Program-made: the position numbers and the translations under genes | Part shown: positions 17,688-51,891 of the stretch, in pieces | Numbering within the stretch: position 1 is the stretch's first letter | How the letters are laid out: every line of letters starts with the position of its first letter | The notes under the pieces: generated by a model | What the model was told of the DNA's origin: nothing | The model's input: only the letters and a program-made list of their open reading frames with translations | Databases searched by the model: none | Assembly: GCA_945886445.1 (NCBI GenBank) | Contig: CAMCZG010000002.1 | Coordinates: 1-64,000 of the forward strand | DNA length: 64,000 nt | From: Bifidobacterium breve | GTDB lineage: Bacteria > Actinomycetota > Acidimicrobiia > Acidimicrobiales > Ilumatobacteraceae | Direction: 5' to 3'

Positions 17688-19181
17688 TTGACCACAGTGC
17701 CCCGCGCTCTTCTCAGTGTCTATAACAAAACAGGCATAGAAGAATTTGCGCGGGGCCTTGTTGCATCTGGGTGGAGCATCATCTCGAGCGGTGGAACAGC
17801 AAAGGCGCTCATCGAAGCGGGCGTCAACGTGACTGACGTAGCCGACCTCACTGGCGTACCCGCAATTCTCGATCACCGCGTGGTCACGCTGCACCCCAAA
17901 GTGCACGGAGGGATACTTGCCGATACTGCGCTGCCGCATCATGTAGCCGATATGGCCGAGTACGGCATTGAAGCCATCGACCTAGTTGTGGTGAACCTGT
18001 ATCCGTTTTCTAGTAACCCCAGTATTGACCTCATTGATGTTGGTGGCCCAGCAATGATTCGCGCAGCTGCGAAAAACTTTGCGCGAGTAGGTGTAGTAGT
18101 CGAACCATCTCAGTACGCGCCAGTACTTGCTGAAATTACGGCAAATGGAGTTTTGAGTTTAGAAACACGACGCCAGCTTTCAGCACAAGCATTTGCTACT
18201 ACCCGTGATTACGACAAAGCAATTGAGCAATGGATGAGTGGAGATGAGAAGTCTTCGTTGTCTTTGCAGCTAGAGCATGTTTCAGATTTGCGCTACGGAG
18301 AGAACCCACATCAAACGGGTACCTTGTATCGACTAGAAGGAAGCCACAGTTGGTGGAGCTCCGCAGAACAACTTGGTGGCAAAGAGATGTCGTATCTCAA
18401 TGTTTTCGATGCCGACGCAGCTTGGAAGTTGGTGCATCAATTTTCTGATGCTGCAGCGGTCGTTGTAAAGCACGCCAACCCCTGTGGTGTAGCAACTGGG
18501 CCAACTCTGAGCGGCGCGTATCAACGCGCACATGCTTGTGACCCAGTGAGCGCATTTGGTGGAATCATTGCTCTCAACCGCGAGGTTGATGAAGTAACCG
18601 CTCAAGAAATTTGCAATGTGTTTACTGAGGTAGTTATTGCTCCGGCATATTCAGAGTCAGCACTTCACGTTCTTCAAAGTAAGAAAAATTTGCGCATCAT
18701 GCGTGCCACTGCTCCACAGCTTCCTGAGTACGAGCTCCGTAGTGTGAGTGGTGGTGTTCTTGTGCAAAGCCCCGATGGCGTCAATGATGACCCGGCAACA
18801 TGGACTGTGGCGAGTAGCACCCAGCCCACCCCAGAGCAGTTACAGCAGGCCGGCTTTGCGTGGAAGGTCTGTGCCGCGGTGAGCTCGAATGCCATTGTGG
18901 TCACACAAAATAATGAAGCGGTGGGTATTGGCGGGGGCCAGCAAAACCGTCTCGACGCAGCGCGGTTGGCGTGCGAACGCGCAGGGACCCGAGCCATTGG
19001 TGGGGTAGCGGCAAGTGATGCTTTTTTCCCGTTCCGTGATGGGCTCGATATGTTGGCAGCCGCTGGGGTTCATGTCGTTGTCGAGCCAGGGGGCAGTGTT
19101 CGTGACGAGGAAGTCATTGCCGCAGCAAATGAACATGGCATTGTGCTCCTCTTCACTGGCGCACGCCACTTCCGTCACTAA
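17688..19181 (+). CDS. purH: AICAR transformylase / IMP cyclohydrolase
   Basis: Final two steps of purine synthesis: formylation of AICAR with 10-formyl-THF and ring closure to IMP. The N-terminal MGS-like cyclohydrolase domain shows SVYNKTG and SSGGTAK; the transformylase has RYGENPHQ and the catalytic KHANPCG motif. 497 residues, slightly short for the family. Start is TTG 17688 or GTG 17697. It ends 9 bp before metF, linking two folate-dependent genes. Confidence 0.95.
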   Translation: MTTVPRALLSVYNKTGIEEFARGLVASGWSIISSGGTAKALIEAGVNVTDVADLTGVPAILDHRVVTLHPKVHGGILADTALPHHVADMAEYGIEAIDLVVVNLYPFSSNPSIDLIDVGGPAMIRAAAKNFARVGVVVEPSQYAPVLAEITANGVLSLETRRQLSAQAFATTRDYDKAIEQWMSGDEKSSLSLQLEHVSDLRYGENPHQTGTLYRLEGSHSWWSSAEQLGGKEMSYLNVFDADAAWKLVHQFSDAAAVVVKHANPCGVATGPTLSGAYQRAHACDPVSAFGGIIALNREVDEVTAQEICNVFTEVVIAPAYSESALHVLQSKKNLRIMRATAPQLPEYELRSVSGGVLVQSPDGVNDDPATWTVASSTQPTPEQLQQAGFAWKVCAAVSSNAIVVTQNNEAVGIGGGQQNRLDAARLACERAGTRAIGGVAASDAFFPFRDGLDMLAAAGVHVVVEPGGSVRDEEVIAAANEHGIVLLFTGARHFRH

Positions 19182-19190
19182 ACTATTGCG

Positions 19191-20063
19191 ATGGCCCGCA
19201 TTACGGAACTCCTCGCTCGTGGTCGTACATTCTCTTTCGAGTTCTTCCCGCCAAAGACCGACGCTGCGCAATTATCCTTAGGTCGAACAATTGCGGAATT
19301 AGAAACTTTGCATCCCAGTTTTGTGTCGGTTACTTATGGTGCTGGTGGAAGTACCCGCGAACGAACTCGCGATCTCGTTACGTGGATGCGTCGCGAAACT
19401 TCTATCTCGCCGATGGCGCATCTCACCTGCGTAGGGCACACGCGCGGCGATATTGAAGAAATCCTTCAGGCGTATACAGAAGCAGGTGTTGAAAACATTC
19501 TGGCTCTTGGCGGCGACCCACCAACAGACCCTGCCGATGTGCGCCCGAGCGACTATCGCTTTGCGTCTGATCTCGTTAATGAACTTCAAGCTGCTGGTCA
19601 GTTCAGCATTGGCGTTGCCGCACACCCAGAAGTGCATCCGCGCAGTACATCACGCAGCGATGACCGCAAATTCTTGGCAGAAAAACTACGTACGGCCGAC
19701 TTCGCCATTACCCAATTTTTCTTTGAAGTAGAACACTATGTGCGCCTTGTTGAAGAACTTGCGGCACTCGGAATTAATAAGCCCGTCATTCCGGGCATTA
19801 TGCCTGTGACCAACAAAAGTCAAGTACAACGCATGGCAGAAATGTCGGGGGCGGCTTTCCCACAAGATTTAGCTCATCGGCTCGCCAAAGTAGATGACCC
19901 AGAAGAAGTACGGCGTATTGGAGTAGAAGCAGCAACTGAGTTGTGTGCCCAATTACTCGATGCGGGTGCACCAGGGTTGCATTTTTATACGTTGAATCGG
20001 TCAAGTGCGACGCGTGAGATCTATGCAAACTTGGGGTTACCGGTTGTCTCGTCTGCCACCTGA
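19191..20063 (+). CDS. metF: 5,10-methylenetetrahydrofolate reductase
   Basis: Flavin enzyme reducing methylene-THF to methyl-THF for methionine synthesis. The 290-residue TIM-barrel starts with the family sequence FSFEFFPPKTD and shows VSVTYGAGGSTR, HLTCVG and LALGGDPP. The late QFFFEV and PGIMP segments are also conserved. Follows purH closely, and its 3' end overlaps the most likely start region of the acyltransferase gene. Confidence 0.95.
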   Translation: MARITELLARGRTFSFEFFPPKTDAAQLSLGRTIAELETLHPSFVSVTYGAGGSTRERTRDLVTWMRRETSISPMAHLTCVGHTRGDIEEILQAYTEAGVENILALGGDPPTDPADVRPSDYRFASDLVNELQAAGQFSIGVAAHPEVHPRSTSRSDDRKFLAEKLRTADFAITQFFFEVEHYVRLVEELAALGINKPVIPGIMPVTNKSQVQRMAEMSGAAFPQDLAHRLAKVDDPEEVRRIGVEAATELCAQLLDAGAPGLHFYTLNRSSATREIYANLGLPVVSSAT

Positions 20064-23158: not shown

Positions 23159-23941
23159 ATGTCAGTAGTAGCCCTCGTGAACACTAACGAGTGGCCGCTT
23201 TCTGATTTTCAGACCATTACGCAATTACGTGAAATGTTTCAGCGTGATGGCGTGGTGGTGTTGCCAGACTTCGTTTCGCGCGATGTAGTTCTGCGCATGG
23301 TGGCAGAAACTGAAGAACTCATTGCGCTGGCTCACCGCTCGGAGTCTCATAAAACCGCTTATTTAAGTGCTCCAGACGACTCTTTTCCTGTTGGTCACCC
23401 CCGCCGCACCGTGCAGTCGTCTGCAGTCGAAGTGATTGCTTATGACCATGTACCAGCACATCATGCGGTGCGTGAACTGTATGAGTCTGATGAGCTCATG
23501 ACTTTTATTGCCGGTGTTCTTGGGCAAGAAAAGCTTTATCGGTACGCCGATCCCTTTGGTGCATTGAATCTTGCCGTCATGGGCGAAGGCGATCAATTGG
23601 GTTGGCATTTCGATATGACCGACTTCGTGGTATCGCTTGCATTACAGCCCTCGCAAGCAGGCGGCAAATTTGAAAATGCACAAAAACTTCGCACGGCAAC
23701 CGATGAAAATTATGACGGTGTGCAAAGTGTGTTATCGGGCAACGCGCATGACCGTATTCGTATAGAGCCAATGCACGCCGGCACGCTCATGATTTTCAAT
23801 GGTCGTACATCACTGCACAAAGTGACACCTATTCAGGGAAGCACCTTGCGCATTGTTGCACTGTTGGCCTACGACACAAAGAGTGGCACCGATTCGTCAA
23901 ATGAATTGAAGCTCTCACGATACGGAAGGTTGCCTCAATGA
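23159..23941 (+). CDS. 2-oxoglutarate/Fe(II) oxygenase (phytanoyl-CoA dioxygenase-like)
   Basis: A 260-residue double-stranded beta-helix oxygenase. The iron triad is visible as H150-F-D152 and H220 (SLHKVTP), with R231 as the expected 2-oxoglutarate anchor. Such enzymes hydroxylate or oxidatively demethylate small molecules, the latter releasing formaldehyde. The gene overlaps the next start by 4 bp (ATGA), so it is translationally coupled to a formaldehyde-activating-enzyme homologue; this suggests its reaction generates formaldehyde (inference). Substrate unknown. Confidence 0.85.
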   Translation: MSVVALVNTNEWPLSDFQTITQLREMFQRDGVVVLPDFVSRDVVLRMVAETEELIALAHRSESHKTAYLSAPDDSFPVGHPRRTVQSSAVEVIAYDHVPAHHAVRELYESDELMTFIAGVLGQEKLYRYADPFGALNLAVMGEGDQLGWHFDMTDFVVSLALQPSQAGGKFENAQKLRTATDENYDGVQSVLSGNAHDRIRIEPMHAGTLMIFNGRTSLHKVTPIQGSTLRIVALLAYDTKSGTDSSNELKLSRYGRLPQ

Positions 23942-24372
23942 AATCTGAATACGGAGAATCATTCGTCGGAGAAGGAGCCAACGCCGCACACATCAATACG
24001 GTGCTGGGCGACAGGGAAGGCGCAGTGGGAACCGCGTGGGCAACAGGGTTGGCAACGCCAAGCGCTGGGCACACGCGTTTTGTGGCGGTTGCTGCGCCAA
24101 ACCAACCGTTACAGCCAATGACGCTTTTTGTGAACAAGGCAACCATTGAAACCGAACATCATGGTGATCTCACATGGGGGGCTGCTCAGCATGGAGTGGC
24201 GCGGGGTGTGCAAAAAGCACGCAACAGCGGTGTCTTTGGTACAAATGATTTACATGACCTGGCACTCATTGTGGCCGTGTGGGTGAACCCGCTTGCCGAT
24301 GACGCTGCACAAGTTGAAGAAAATAATGCCGAGGCAACATATCTTGCATTGAAGTCGGGCAGTTATTTGTAA
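23938..24372 (+). CDS. fae: Formaldehyde-activating enzyme homologue
   Basis: A 144-residue protein matching Fae, which condenses formaldehyde with tetrahydromethanopterin. Segments corresponding to family landmarks are GESFVGEGANAAHIN (with H18 at the catalytic-His position), VAVAAPNQPLQPMTLFVNK, WGAAQHGVARGVQKA and VAVWVNPLADDA. Classic methylotroph Fae is about 170 residues; this copy lacks the C-terminal tail. No H4MPT pathway genes are in the window, so the acceptor may be a different pterin or the protein may be a Fae-like paralogue. Coupled to the oxygenase upstream; 3' end overlaps the SCP2-like gene by 10 bp. Confidence 0.85.
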   Translation: MKSEYGESFVGEGANAAHINTVLGDREGAVGTAWATGLATPSAGHTRFVAVAAPNQPLQPMTLFVNKATIETEHHGDLTWGAAQHGVARGVQKARNSGVFGTNDLHDLALIVAVWVNPLADDAAQVEENNAEATYLALKSGSYL

Positions 24373-38331: not shown

Positions 38332-39347
38332 GTGATTTTGAAAATGCGTTTGGCGTTGCCGCCAAGAATTTTTGCCTTGTCACTTGATGACAATTGCAAA
38401 GCCTCAATTTTTTCCATGTACTTGTCTTCAAGGTCCCAACCAGCGAAGTTGCTGCCCAGCAGCACCTTGTCGGGGCCTTCAGTTTCCACCAAAAAGGCCA
38501 AGGCATCTTGGCGGTGTACAGCGGTATCGAAAGAGATCTGAGCCCACTGGTCGGCAAAGGGGCGTGTGAGGAGCCCCTTGCCCCACGGGCGTCGCTCGAG
38601 GGCTTGCTCGAGGCGTCCCTTTTGGAAGGCCGCAAAACCGCCTCCGTGGGCCACATGGACGTGCAAACCGGGGTGGCGGTCGAGAATGCCACTGAAGAGA
38701 AAATGAGCAACAGCCAAGCCCTCGTCCATGGCAAAGCCAAAAATGATGTCGAGATCCCAAGGGTCAAAGAAAGGGTCGGAGCCCCCGTAACCCGTACGTG
38801 GTTCGGGGTGCAAGACAACTGGAACGCCAAGGCGTTCGTGTTCGGCCCATAGTTCTTCAAACTGCGGATGCGACAGGGGGGTGCCATTGATGTCGGTACC
38901 GATGTACGAGCACAAGAGCCCCAGTTCGCTCACTGCACGGTTCAGTTCTTTGCATGCCTCTTCAGGGCTTTGCATGGGCAAAGTGGCTGCACCAAGTAGG
39001 CGCGGGTGACGGTCGCCGGTAAGAGCAATTTCGTCATTCGTGCGTTGGTGGAAACCCAATGCATCGGCAATTGGTTGATGATAAAAGTACGTGATGGGGT
39101 TTGGTGAAACGAGTTGCTTATCGAGGCCAAGTGCGTCCATTTGTTCAATGCGCATTTGTGCATTGGAAAATGCACTGTTCACAAACTTCACATTTTCCAA
39201 AACATAATCTGCTGCACGAAAGAACTGGGTTCCGTCATCGCGAACTCCCATTTCAGGGCCGGCGTGTCCGCAGGTGTTCATGACTCCTTCTAAAAGAATG
39301 TGGGCGTGTACGTCGACCACTTCATGATGTGCGTCTGCAAGAGTCAT
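38328..39347 (-). CDS. Amidohydrolase family 2 (ACMSD-like) enzyme
   Basis: A 339-residue TIM-barrel metal enzyme of the amidohydrolase_2 group, which includes decarboxylases and lactone or C-C hydrolases. The metal-binding H14-A-H16 near the N-terminus (VDVHAH), histidines in VVLHPEP and VHVAHGGGF, and an Asp-containing GSNFAGWD near the end are seen. ATG 39347 overlaps the P450 stop by 4 bp; the longer frame to 39572 lies inside that P450. Likely last gene of the SDR-SDR-P450-P450 transcript. Confidence 0.85.
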   Translation of the reverse strand: MTLADAHHEVVDVHAHILLEGVMNTCGHAGPEMGVRDDGTQFFRAADYVLENVKFVNSAFSNAQMRIEQMDALGLDKQLVSPNPITYFYHQPIADALGFHQRTNDEIALTGDRHPRLLGAATLPMQSPEEACKELNRAVSELGLLCSYIGTDINGTPLSHPQFEELWAEHERLGVPVVLHPEPRTGYGGSDPFFDPWDLDIIFGFAMDEGLAVAHFLFSGILDRHPGLHVHVAHGGGFAAFQKGRLEQALERRPWGKGLLTRPFADQWAQISFDTAVHRQDALAFLVETEGPDKVLLGSNFAGWDLEDKYMEKIEALQLSSSDKAKILGGNAKRIFKIT

Positions 39348-40543
39348 GAAACAAAACTTACTGGGTAGTGCTTCCACACAGGGCGTCGTGTAGCAACGTC
39401 TAGCTCTGGTTGATGCGAGAGGTGGGGTATTCCTCCGCGTTGCAATACCGCTTGCAACATCACCACAATTGCGCCGTATAACGGGGTTTCTTGTTGCTGG
39501 TCTTCGCCGAGGCCCCCCGCAAGTTCTTGACCTAAACAGGCATGAAACCCGGTGCCAAAGGTGAGCCCCCAACGAGGTGCTTGAGTAGGTGTAATGCGGT
39601 GTGGGTCGAATGTGTCGGCCGTTGACCCAAATATTTCAGGGTCGCGATTCGCACTCACCATATTGATAACAACAGTTGCACCGGCTGGAATGTGCACGCC
39701 GCAGGGTAGTTGAACATCGGCAGTTGCTATACGTGTTGCTTCGGGGCTCGCCGGATGTAGTCGTAACGACTCGTGAACAAAGCGTTGTAACAGTGCGGCG
39801 TTGGTGGCTAACTCAGACAAGGTTCCGTGGTGTTCAGACTCCCATGTAAAACAGTGATGAAGCGCATGCACTAGTGCAGCAGAAGTGGAGTGAGAGCCCA
39901 CCCAAGGGAAATAAGCAATTTCACGAGCAATTATATTGTCTGGTAGATCGAGGTTGTCTTGGTTTGTGAGCAACACCGTCAGCACATCGGCGGGCAGATC
40001 GCTCCACTCCATTGCACCTTGTGTTGCCTGTGCAATGAGATGTTCTCTACGTTGTCGCGACGTGGCAAAGTACTCCGCAAGAAAAGTATTTAAGGCCGCA
40101 TTTCCTTCAGCAATGATGTCGTTCTTATTTCCCGTCGCGTGTACAACAGTCGAAGCCGCTGCAAGTTTCGCCATGAGGCCACTCATTTTCTCAAAGCTTG
40201 CAAGATCTGCACCAATGTCAATTCCTGCAACGAGTGATGACAAGCGCATCATGGTGCGTCGTGCAATTTGCACCATGTCACCCTCGGTGGGGTCGGCAAG
40301 CTGGCTGAAAACATCGTTGATGAGTTGAGGAATCAGTAGTTGTTCCCACTGCAGGAAAGTGTCACGCCGGAAAAGTCGGTTTTCTAAGCGCCGACGCGCA
40401 AGGTGGTCGCTGCCATGGAGGTTCACAATGACACCGTCCATGAGTGCACTACCTTCGTCGTACAGACCTTGACGCAAATCGCGATGACGCAAAGCATCGC
40501 GAGCCTCATTCCACGCGGAGAGGCGTACAACAGACTGTTGCAT
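39344..40543 (-). CDS. Cytochrome P450, second of a tandem pair
   Basis: A 399-residue P450 with haem loop FGTGFHACLGQE (axial C336) and helix-K ESLR. The I-helix reads VGSHSTSAA: the usual Asp/Glu is His and the first motif residue is Val, so oxygen activation may differ. It is clearly paralogous to the preceding P450 (both share NLHG..H.ARRRLENRLFRR). ATG 40543 is 4 bp after the paralogue's stop; the frame open to 40663 is not used. Overlaps the amidohydrolase by 4 bp. Confidence 0.9.
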   Translation of the reverse strand: MQQSVVRLSAWNEARDALRHRDLRQGLYDEGSALMDGVIVNLHGSDHLARRRLENRLFRRDTFLQWEQLLIPQLINDVFSQLADPTEGDMVQIARRTMMRLSSLVAGIDIGADLASFEKMSGLMAKLAAASTVVHATGNKNDIIAEGNAALNTFLAEYFATSRQRREHLIAQATQGAMEWSDLPADVLTVLLTNQDNLDLPDNIIAREIAYFPWVGSHSTSAALVHALHHCFTWESEHHGTLSELATNAALLQRFVHESLRLHPASPEATRIATADVQLPCGVHIPAGATVVINMVSANRDPEIFGSTADTFDPHRITPTQAPRWGLTFGTGFHACLGQELAGGLGEDQQQETPLYGAIVVMLQAVLQRGGIPHLSHQPELDVATRRPVWKHYPVSFVS

Positions 40544-40547
40544 GCAG

Positions 40548-41756
40548 TTAGCCGAGGAGAACTGAGTAAGAGCCCCAATAGGGGCGGCTCGTTGCCGTGT
40601 CCATTTGCGGTGGATGTGCGGGGTCGGGTCGAACACCACGGTCAAACATTGATTGCACAGCAACGGTGGAAAGCCCGTATTCGTAGTCGGATGTTTCTTG
40701 TGAGCGTTCGTTCAGACCAGCTGCAAGTTCTTGGCCAATGCACGCATGCATACCCGAACCAAAGGAAAGGCCCCAGCGACTCACAGTGGAATCGGCGGGT
40801 TGACGATGAGGGTTGAACTCTGCTGCGTCGGCTCCATACATGGCTACATCGCGGTTCACTGCCATGAGATCTATTACAACGGTGGAGCCTTCCTTGATGA
40901 CAAGACCGCTGCGTAGGGTGACGTCTTCAAGTGCTCGGCGCATTGCAATAGGGCTTGAAGGGTTGAGGCGAATGGTTTCGTAAACAGCATGTTGAACAAA
41001 CTCGCGGTTGGTGTGAACGAGCTCGCTATCTTCAGGGTGCTTTTCAAGCCAGGAAAATAAGTTGTCGAGTGTGCGCACAAATGCAGTAGCCGACGTGTGT
41101 GCACCAGCAAGAAGGAAAAAAGCAATTTCACGTACGAGCGTATGGTGCTCAATATGAAGGGAGTCTTCATTGCGCAGTAGCACGGTGAGAATATCAAGTG
41201 GCAGCGTGCTCTCGGGGGCATTGCCTGCAGCTACTTCAGCAATTAGTGCTTGTCGTCGCTGCACGGAAGGAGCAATGAATTCAGCATCAAATAGTGACAT
41301 CGACTCTGTAATTTCGCCCTTGACGACTTCAGGATCACGTGTGGTGTGAGCAAGTGTTGCACCTTCAATGAATTTCATCATGTAGTTGTACAAACGATCA
41401 GTTTCTTCAGGTGTTCCTGTGGGGCGGTCTACACCTGCGTTATGTGCAGCGAGGTTCATCATGAGTTGATGCGACATGTGTACAAGTTCTGCTGAACCCT
41501 GGGCAACGTATGGCTTCAAAGTGGCATCAATAATTGAAGGAAAAAAATCGCGTTCGTAGCTCACGAGAGTTTCGCGACGGAATAAACGGTTTTCAAGTCG
41601 ACGTCGGGCGCGGTGTTCGTCGCCGTGAAGGTTCACCAAAACACCAGACATCACTATTTCGCCCGCGTCGTACAGCGCCTGGCGCAAACCCTTTTGACGA
41701 TAAATTTCTTTTGCTTCGTCAAATGTGTTGACGGTCATTGTTGTTGCTTCGCTCAT
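40548..41756 (-). CDS. Cytochrome P450, first of a tandem pair
   Basis: A 402-residue soluble P450. Haem loop FGSGMHACIGQE with axial C339, helix-K ETIR and an I-helix AGAHTSAT where the acid before Thr is His. A His-Thr pair is known from CYP51 sterol demethylases (family knowledge), but overall identity to CYP51 is not claimed. Starts 16 bp after the SDR gene. It and the next gene arose by duplication. Electron donor unknown; a [3Fe-4S] ferredoxin lies at 37394. Confidence 0.92.
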   Translation of the reverse strand: MSEATTMTVNTFDEAKEIYRQKGLRQALYDAGEIVMSGVLVNLHGDEHRARRRLENRLFRRETLVSYERDFFPSIIDATLKPYVAQGSAELVHMSHQLMMNLAAHNAGVDRPTGTPEETDRLYNYMMKFIEGATLAHTTRDPEVVKGEITESMSLFDAEFIAPSVQRRQALIAEVAAGNAPESTLPLDILTVLLRNEDSLHIEHHTLVREIAFFLLAGAHTSATAFVRTLDNLFSWLEKHPEDSELVHTNREFVQHAVYETIRLNPSSPIAMRRALEDVTLRSGLVIKEGSTVVIDLMAVNRDVAMYGADAAEFNPHRQPADSTVSRWGLSFGSGMHACIGQELAAGLNERSQETSDYEYGLSTVAVQSMFDRGVRPDPAHPPQMDTATSRPYWGSYSVLLG

Positions 41757-51096: not shown

Positions 51097-51891
51097 TTAC
51101 TGCACTTTAAACAATGTATCGAAGCGTGCTTCGATGGTTTTGTCGGCTCCAATGTTGAGTTGACTCCAGCGACTTTGTTCTATTTTCGTTAGAGCACTCA
51201 ACGGCATCAGCCCGACGAGTTCTGCACGTGCGATGTTGCCGAATTGAGCAACGATGTCGTATGCCGTGTCCACATTGATGGTGTCTAAATCTGTCAGATT
51301 CATGCTGATTTGTGCATGTCCATCTACCAAAAAACTCAATGCGCGCAGGCCCGGTTGGCGAATGTTCAGCACAATCTCATGTGCAGTTTTCATTGTGGTG
51401 TCGGCGAGAAAAATGTTGTAGGCAACTAAAACTTCTCTGACACCTACACATATCGCCCCAGCTGTTGGGTGCGCGATGCGCGGCCCAACATCTGGAAAAA
51501 GTGACGTCCATGCCGTGCGGCGAATATCGGGAAGCGTGCGTTCTGGCCCGTAGTAAAAACTGGGAACACCAAGTTCATTTGCGACCCATTGTGCAAATGA
51601 ATTGCGTTCACGAATTGCTTCGTCGAATGTGGTATCGCCCAGTGGAATGAAGGGAACCACATCAACCACTCCGAGGCGTGGGTGTACACCTGCGTGTTCA
51701 TGAATATTGAGGAGGTCGACGGCGTGCGCGGCAAGGAGCCTGGGGGCGTGCGTGCCGCGCAGAGTAAATACGCTGCGGTGATGGTCGGGGTCGGAATGAA
51801 CGTCGAGGAGATCGGCGGCTACAGCTGCGCTCATATTGGCAAGTGTTTCGGGGCTTTGACCCTCACTGATATTGACGACGCACTCGAGCAC
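51097..51891 (-). CDS. Glutamate formimidoyltransferase
   Basis: Transfers a formimino group from formiminoglutamate to tetrahydrofolate (end of histidine breakdown). The 264-residue protein starts with ECVVNISEG and carries the active His in GVHPRLGVVDVVPF (H70), with an AYNIFL segment and YYGPERTLPDIRR matching the FTCD N-terminal part. Somewhat short for the full two-subdomain unit. No fused cyclodeaminase. GTG start. No other hut genes are present, so its role in histidine use is not confirmed. Confidence 0.88.
   Translation of the reverse strand: MLECVVNISEGQSPETLANMSAAVAADLLDVHSDPDHHRSVFTLRGTHAPRLLAAHAVDLLNIHEHAGVHPRLGVVDVVPFIPLGDTTFDEAIRERNSFAQWVANELGVPSFYYGPERTLPDIRRTAWTSLFPDVGPRIAHPTAGAICVGVREVLVAYNIFLADTTMKTAHEIVLNIRQPGLRALSFLVDGHAQISMNLTDLDTINVDTAYDIVAQFGNIARAELVGLMPLSALTKIEQSRWSQLNIGADKTIEARFDTLFKVQ

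Follow-up and report, generated by a model that had tools for sequence, protein, structure and literature searches.

Two overlapping genes in the window, which is the whole stretch of 64,000 nucleotides that was analysed, encode an Fe(II)/2-oxoglutarate oxygenase and a homologue of formaldehyde-activating enzyme (Fae), and we are strongly confident that the two proteins form one functional unit. The folds and families are known and the pairing is new. The pair is apparently undescribed so far, as no description of it or of the methanopterin-free (Asn24) Fae subfamily was found in the open-licence literature. As an overall proposal, to which we give about an even chance, the genes would be coupled in translation and make up an oxidation module that works independently of methanopterin.

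The oxygenase and the Fae-like protein

The oxygenase gene (260 aa; 23159-23941, + strand) and the Fae-like gene (144 aa; 23938-24372, +) overlap by 4 bp as the earlier note had described, with an ATGA at 23938-23941 (+) that combines the Fae start codon and the oxygenase stop codon. The motif GGAAGG lies 8 nt ahead of the Fae start (23924-23929, +); overlap and motif were both read from the sequence. No oxygenase-Fae fusion protein was found, and the long frames around Fae in two other loci (L002 and L003) read as upstream non-coding sequence in GC-rich DNA.

Profile search identified the first gene product as an oxygenase of the HalD/BesD family (PF23169, HalD: 62.5 bits, E=5.2e-17, cut-off 26). 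The PhyH family (PF05721), which had been suggested earlier, was rejected with 17.7 bits against a cut-off of 22 over 42 residues only, and the 2OG-FeII_Oxy_3 profile also stayed below its cut-off. The metal-binding triad is intact, as previously noted: the ligands H150 and D152 (codons of H150-F151-D152 at 23606-23614, +) and H220 (23816-23818, +), together with R231 (23849-23851, +), the likely 2-oxoglutarate-binding arginine, are unchanged across 15 aligned distant homologues with 41-54% identity to the window protein. The HxD pair H150/D152 was found in 47/47 rows of the oxygenase comparison set. Since the HxD triad retains its Asp, the window oxygenase is of the hydroxylase type and not a halogenase. 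In BesD-type halogenases the metal-binding Asp is replaced by Gly or Ala, which makes space for the halide; here Asp152 is invariant, and the BesD halogenase equivalog NF042920 gave 26.2 bits (cut-off 450). The nearest solved structures are lysine hydroxylases and BesD-type halogenases (E ~1e-5); the lysine-contact positions of BesD had no confident mapping onto the window oxygenase, and a structure model from eight close relatives reached a pLDDT of 34. On a Klebsiella plasmid (L100, 7016-8865), a 36%-identical oxygenase has as neighbours a DUF2817 gene and one for an ABC binding protein of the amino-acid type, and a similar oxygenase/DUF2817 neighbourhood was seen again on Pantoea plasmids.

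The second gene product matched PF08714 (144.9 bits, E=2.7e-42, cut-off 27), TIGR03126 (127.5 bits, cut-off 118.05) and the Methylobacterium extorquens Fae structure (PDB 1Y5Y, E=1.1e-24), and it is the single Fae in the window's genome (2.1-Mb assembly, 92.7% complete). The retained catalytic histidine reported earlier was recovered, as His18 aligns to His22 of M. extorquens Fae; in this alignment the codons of H18-I19-N20 (23989-23997, +) correspond to the kept His22 and to Asp24, which is now Asn. The C terminus is ~20 residues shorter than in most homologues, which is not a sequencing error because it is common to close relatives.

Eight reference Faes, none of them archaeal, all carry His22, Asp24, Leu53, Phe69, Lys71, Gln88 and Phe119 (M. 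extorquens numbering), and seven of the eight carry Thr73. Residues 22, 24, 53, 71, 73 and 88 are those that, going by the UniProt entry, we take to touch the substrate in the M. extorquens Fae complex. Among 72 non-canonical sequences, near-identical ones counted, His22 (67/72), Lys71 (68/72) and Gln88 (70/72) are retained, and the substitutions Asn24 (68/72), Val69 (66/72) and Trp119 (67/72) predominate. The window protein has Asn24, Val53, Val69 and Trp119 and retains Thr73. A phylogenetic tree separated the canonical group (Phyllobacterium, Azospirillum, Thiodictyon, Methylocystis, Methylovirgula, Paraburkholderia and M. extorquens) from all Acidimicrobiia and catabolic-cluster sequences by a branch of length 2.5 with support 100/100; the Phyllobacterium, Azospirillum and Thiodictyon Faes adjoin mch and methylene-H4MPT dehydrogenase genes. 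The change to Asn24, Val69 and Trp119 was probably one event on one branch that was then held, so the Asn24 count does not represent 68 independent events. Judged from these comparisons, the Fae-like protein is a true member of the Fae family but not the methylotroph enzyme. Because Asp24, Phe69 and Phe119 are lost in a separate subfamily, formaldehyde capture cannot be read from the Fae name. In four other Acidimicrobiia loci (L170, L174, L176 and L022), Fae homologues have lost the catalytic His to Ser, Arg or Leu, and two of these are second copies in their genome.

The earlier expectation of an organism lacking the tetrahydromethanopterin pathway was borne out. No mch (PF02289) was detected in 58 Fae-positive actinobacterial genomes (0/22 and 0/36), and no ftr (PF02741) in 22 of them (0/22), and the archaeal positive controls were found. 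A hidden methanopterin pathway was ruled out on these grounds, and the Fae-like protein very likely does not use tetrahydromethanopterin. TIGR03126, an equivalog model of NCBI, nevertheless scores the window protein above cut-off as a methanopterin Fae, and such genomes may be called methylotroph-like without having the pathway.

Conservation of the pair in Acidimicrobiia

Of the two computational points on which the earlier note's reading could fail, the Fae profile match held, and conservation in relatives was found in genomes of the order and then of the class. The order sample comprised 298 genomes, 22 of them with Fae over cut-off. The window's oxygenase picked out 19 genomes at E<1e-58, with the next matches at ~1e-47 and weaker, and this close oxygenase occurred in 17/22 Fae-positive and 2/276 Fae-negative genomes (Fisher p ~2e-21, genomes being counted without correction for relatedness). 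In all 17 genomes with both genes, the oxygenase lies directly upstream of Fae on the same strand. The class sample added 28 Fae-positive Acidimicrobiia genomes, in which 14 pairs were collinear and one was divergent. The oxygenase thus adjoins Fae in 32 of the 50 Acidimicrobiia genomes that have Fae, and these belong to several families and to more than a single order. The commonest spacing is the 4-bp overlap, and others range from ~16 bp overlap to ~70 bp gap. Adjacency holds at 40-55% protein identity while the outer neighbours differ. Of the genes further out, mdh, SCP2-like and VTT are conserved only inside the window's own family, and this limited range serves as an internal control.

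In the oxygenase tree, the 35 clade members form one group with support 100/98, and 33 of them are located beside Fae; the two without it (G250 and G265) are not sisters. The single clade with two non-sister exceptions needs one gain and two losses. In both exceptions, an aspartase/fumarase-superfamily gene directly follows the oxygenase in Fae's place (L082, end of contig; L083, 6186-7295). Its signature loop is diverged (GSTFFASKTNP), and it scored far under the aspartase equivalog cut-off. This replacement can be read both ways: the gene product may deaminate an amino acid that has been demethylated, or act as another lyase for the same multi-carbon product.

Purifying selection acts on both genes, with dN/dS against close relatives at 0.04-0.07 in Fae and at 0.06-0.19 in the oxygenase. 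The pair is dispensable, since it is absent from a same-genus genome (G810, 96% complete) that is without Fae. One close relative has an in-frame stop in the oxygenase with Fae intact (L028, 3222-4001) and another an in-frame deletion within Fae (L031, 4001-4339), each of which may be either a MAG error or real decay. The close relatives of the window are actinobacterial MAGs, several of them labelled Ilumatobacteraceae or Acidimicrobiales. Carriage by viruses was rejected, as no relative was found in viral contigs. Taken as a whole, the pair is an old two-gene unit.

A proposed reaction and its alternatives

Following the proposed mechanism, the HalD/BesD-type oxygenase would hydroxylate a small substrate using Fe(II), O2 and 2-oxoglutarate. 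The most likely site is a carbon adjacent to nitrogen or to a different heteroatom, and the product would be either a carbinolamine (a hemiaminal) or an aldehyde in free form. If a methyl carbon is the one attacked, formaldehyde would be the leading candidate product; that it is the intermediate shared by the two enzymes is a tentative suggestion, which we place somewhat below an even chance. The Fae-like protein may then catalyse the reversible condensation/dehydration of the reactive carbonyl with an amine and hand the carbonyl to some acceptor that is not tetrahydromethanopterin, such as tetrahydrofolate or a thiol or amine carrier. Alternatively, its step may be to resolve the carbinolamine. 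Carbonyl/amine chemistry is suggested by the retention of His22, Lys71 and Gln88, and aldehyde chemistry is favoured because Fae-like relatives cluster with aldehyde dehydrogenase (ALDH), alcohol dehydrogenase (ADH), aldo-keto reductase (AKR) and HIBADH-type genes.

These clusters were examined at loci outside the pair, with genes from a simple home-made caller and with some proteins checked by family and others read by eye. In Caballeronia and Burkholderia, Fae is found in a cluster with an aldo-keto reductase, a succinate-semialdehyde-type ALDH and an MFS transporter, and the Streptomyces clavuligerus cluster has an OpuAC-type ABC transporter, Fae, a HIBADH-type reductase and an ALDH. Other Actinomycetota clusters include an MR/MLE-type enzyme, ALDH, Zn-ADH of the NDMA-dependent/class III type and dipeptide or betaine transporters, and one of them also has agmatinase and GABA enzymes. 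Neither the oxygenase nor an obvious formaldehyde source was seen in the Fae-like clusters elsewhere, and their recurring theme is aldehyde/alcohol redox chemistry, not one-carbon folate chemistry. At three loci (L034, L048 and L108), the Fae-like gene adjoins a Zn-alcohol dehydrogenase whose relatives are the NDMA-dependent and S-(hydroxymethyl)mycothiol dehydrogenases, with no oxygenase.

The earlier note had also seen one-carbon genes around the pair. Indeed, metF (19191-20063), purH (17688-19181) and a formiminotransferase (51097-51891, -) are present in the window, but the last is 27 kb from the pair and none of the three is a conserved partner beyond the window's own family, to which the metF/purH adjacency is limited. 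The window's genome contains folD, and no mycothiol-dependent formaldehyde dehydrogenase above cut-off was found in it. Elsewhere in the window, an FMN riboswitch (2857-2987, -; RF00050, 98.3 bits) precedes what appear to be riboflavin genes, also on the minus strand. Two adjoining ORFs at 39344-41756 (-) are alike at the N terminus; the first matches cytochrome P450 (PF00067) and the second, judged by eye, looks like a duplicate of it.

In the earlier note's version, the oxygenase would be an N- or O-demethylase, and Fae would trap the formaldehyde that it releases. Tetrahydrofolate, or a different one-carbon carrier, would take it up and so supply the folate pool. The 2-oxoglutarate oxygenases include known demethylases, the genome has folD, metF and purH, the catalytic His of Fae is retained, and the aspartase-like gene in place of Fae fits the deamination of a demethylated amino acid. 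However, HalD/BesD relatives of known activity hydroxylate or halogenate amino-acid carbons, the metF and purH adjacency is confined to one family, Asp24, Phe69 and Phe119 are altered, and Fae relatives elsewhere are without a formaldehyde source. We consider this explanation credible but rather unlikely. For the source-and-sink idea of the note as a whole, the Fae family assignment, the hydroxylase-type oxygenase and the conserved pair stood, while the separate Fae subfamily and its relatives lacking an obvious formaldehyde source count against it, and such formaldehyde chemistry is one plausible hypothesis.

The Fae-like subfamily may instead have been repurposed, with formaldehyde uninvolved; its members would then be lyases, isomerases or imine hydrolases, and the oxygenase would supply them with a multi-carbon product. 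The loss of Asp24, Phe69 and Phe119 on a branch of length 2.5 would fit such a change. So would the gene clusters, in which MR-type enzyme, ALDH, AKR and ADH occur together with transporters for betaine or dipeptides, and the two genomes in which a gene of another lyase family replaces Fae. Against this, the kept catalytic His, Lys71 and Gln88 favour retained carbonyl/amine chemistry; repurposing of this kind is in our view doubtful. Accidental adjacency of unrelated neighbours could explain why some Fae-like genes are without the oxygenase and why the pair is patchy and absent from a same-genus genome, but it is very improbable and largely refuted, chance neighbours being ruled out by the oxygenase tree and by conservation at 40-55% identity, which spans several families, goes beyond a single order and holds while the outer neighbours change.

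Significance and relation to known systems

Returning to the methanopterin-independent module, we tentatively propose a new use of the Fae fold, in which the subfamily would resolve or capture a carbinolamine or aldehyde from a dedicated 2-oxoglutarate oxygenase; the two enzymes would make up an oxidative system, so far undescribed, that extends across Acidimicrobiia, and in Actinomycetes and Proteobacteria the subfamily would have other partners. The function of the subfamily probably differs from that of known Fae at least in the acceptor. If the module works in this way, common freshwater and soil Acidimicrobiia could oxidise a small compound that contains a heteroatom, and a second function would be shown for a protein family so far linked to tetrahydromethanopterin. 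Orphan Fae homologues that lack an explanation become directly testable via a small two-protein system.

By profile, the oxygenase is of the same family as the HalD/BesD halogenases and lysine hydroxylases (PF23169; PDB 7JSD, 7U6I and 6NIE), and it shares the HxD...H triad with the hydroxylase members. It is remote from them (E ~1e-5), forming its own clade with Glu109, Met141 and Asp155, and unlike the BesD-type halogenases it has Asp at the metal site and hence is not a halogenase. The Fae-like protein likewise shares its family, by profile, and His22, Lys71 and Gln88 with the Fae of methylotrophs and methanogens (M. extorquens, PDB 1Y5Y). It differs from the M. extorquens enzyme in the replacement of Asp24 by Asn, Phe69 by Val and Phe119 by Trp, in its separate clade and, within the window's species group, in the shorter C terminus (~20 residues); in contrast to methylotroph and methanogen Fae, it is found without methanopterin genes and is partnered with an oxygenase. 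The Fae-like genes of Caballeronia, Burkholderia and S. clavuligerus belong to the same Asn24 subfamily as that of the window, but have an AKR or HIBADH-type reductase, an SSADH-like ALDH and transporters as partners, and no oxygenase. Non-canonical Fae paralogues are already known from methylotrophs as Fae2 and Fae3, and single deletions of fae2 and fae3 in Methyloversatilis caused no growth defect on C1 compounds (PMC5023235). The hosts of Fae2 and Fae3, unlike that of the window, have the methanopterin pathway.
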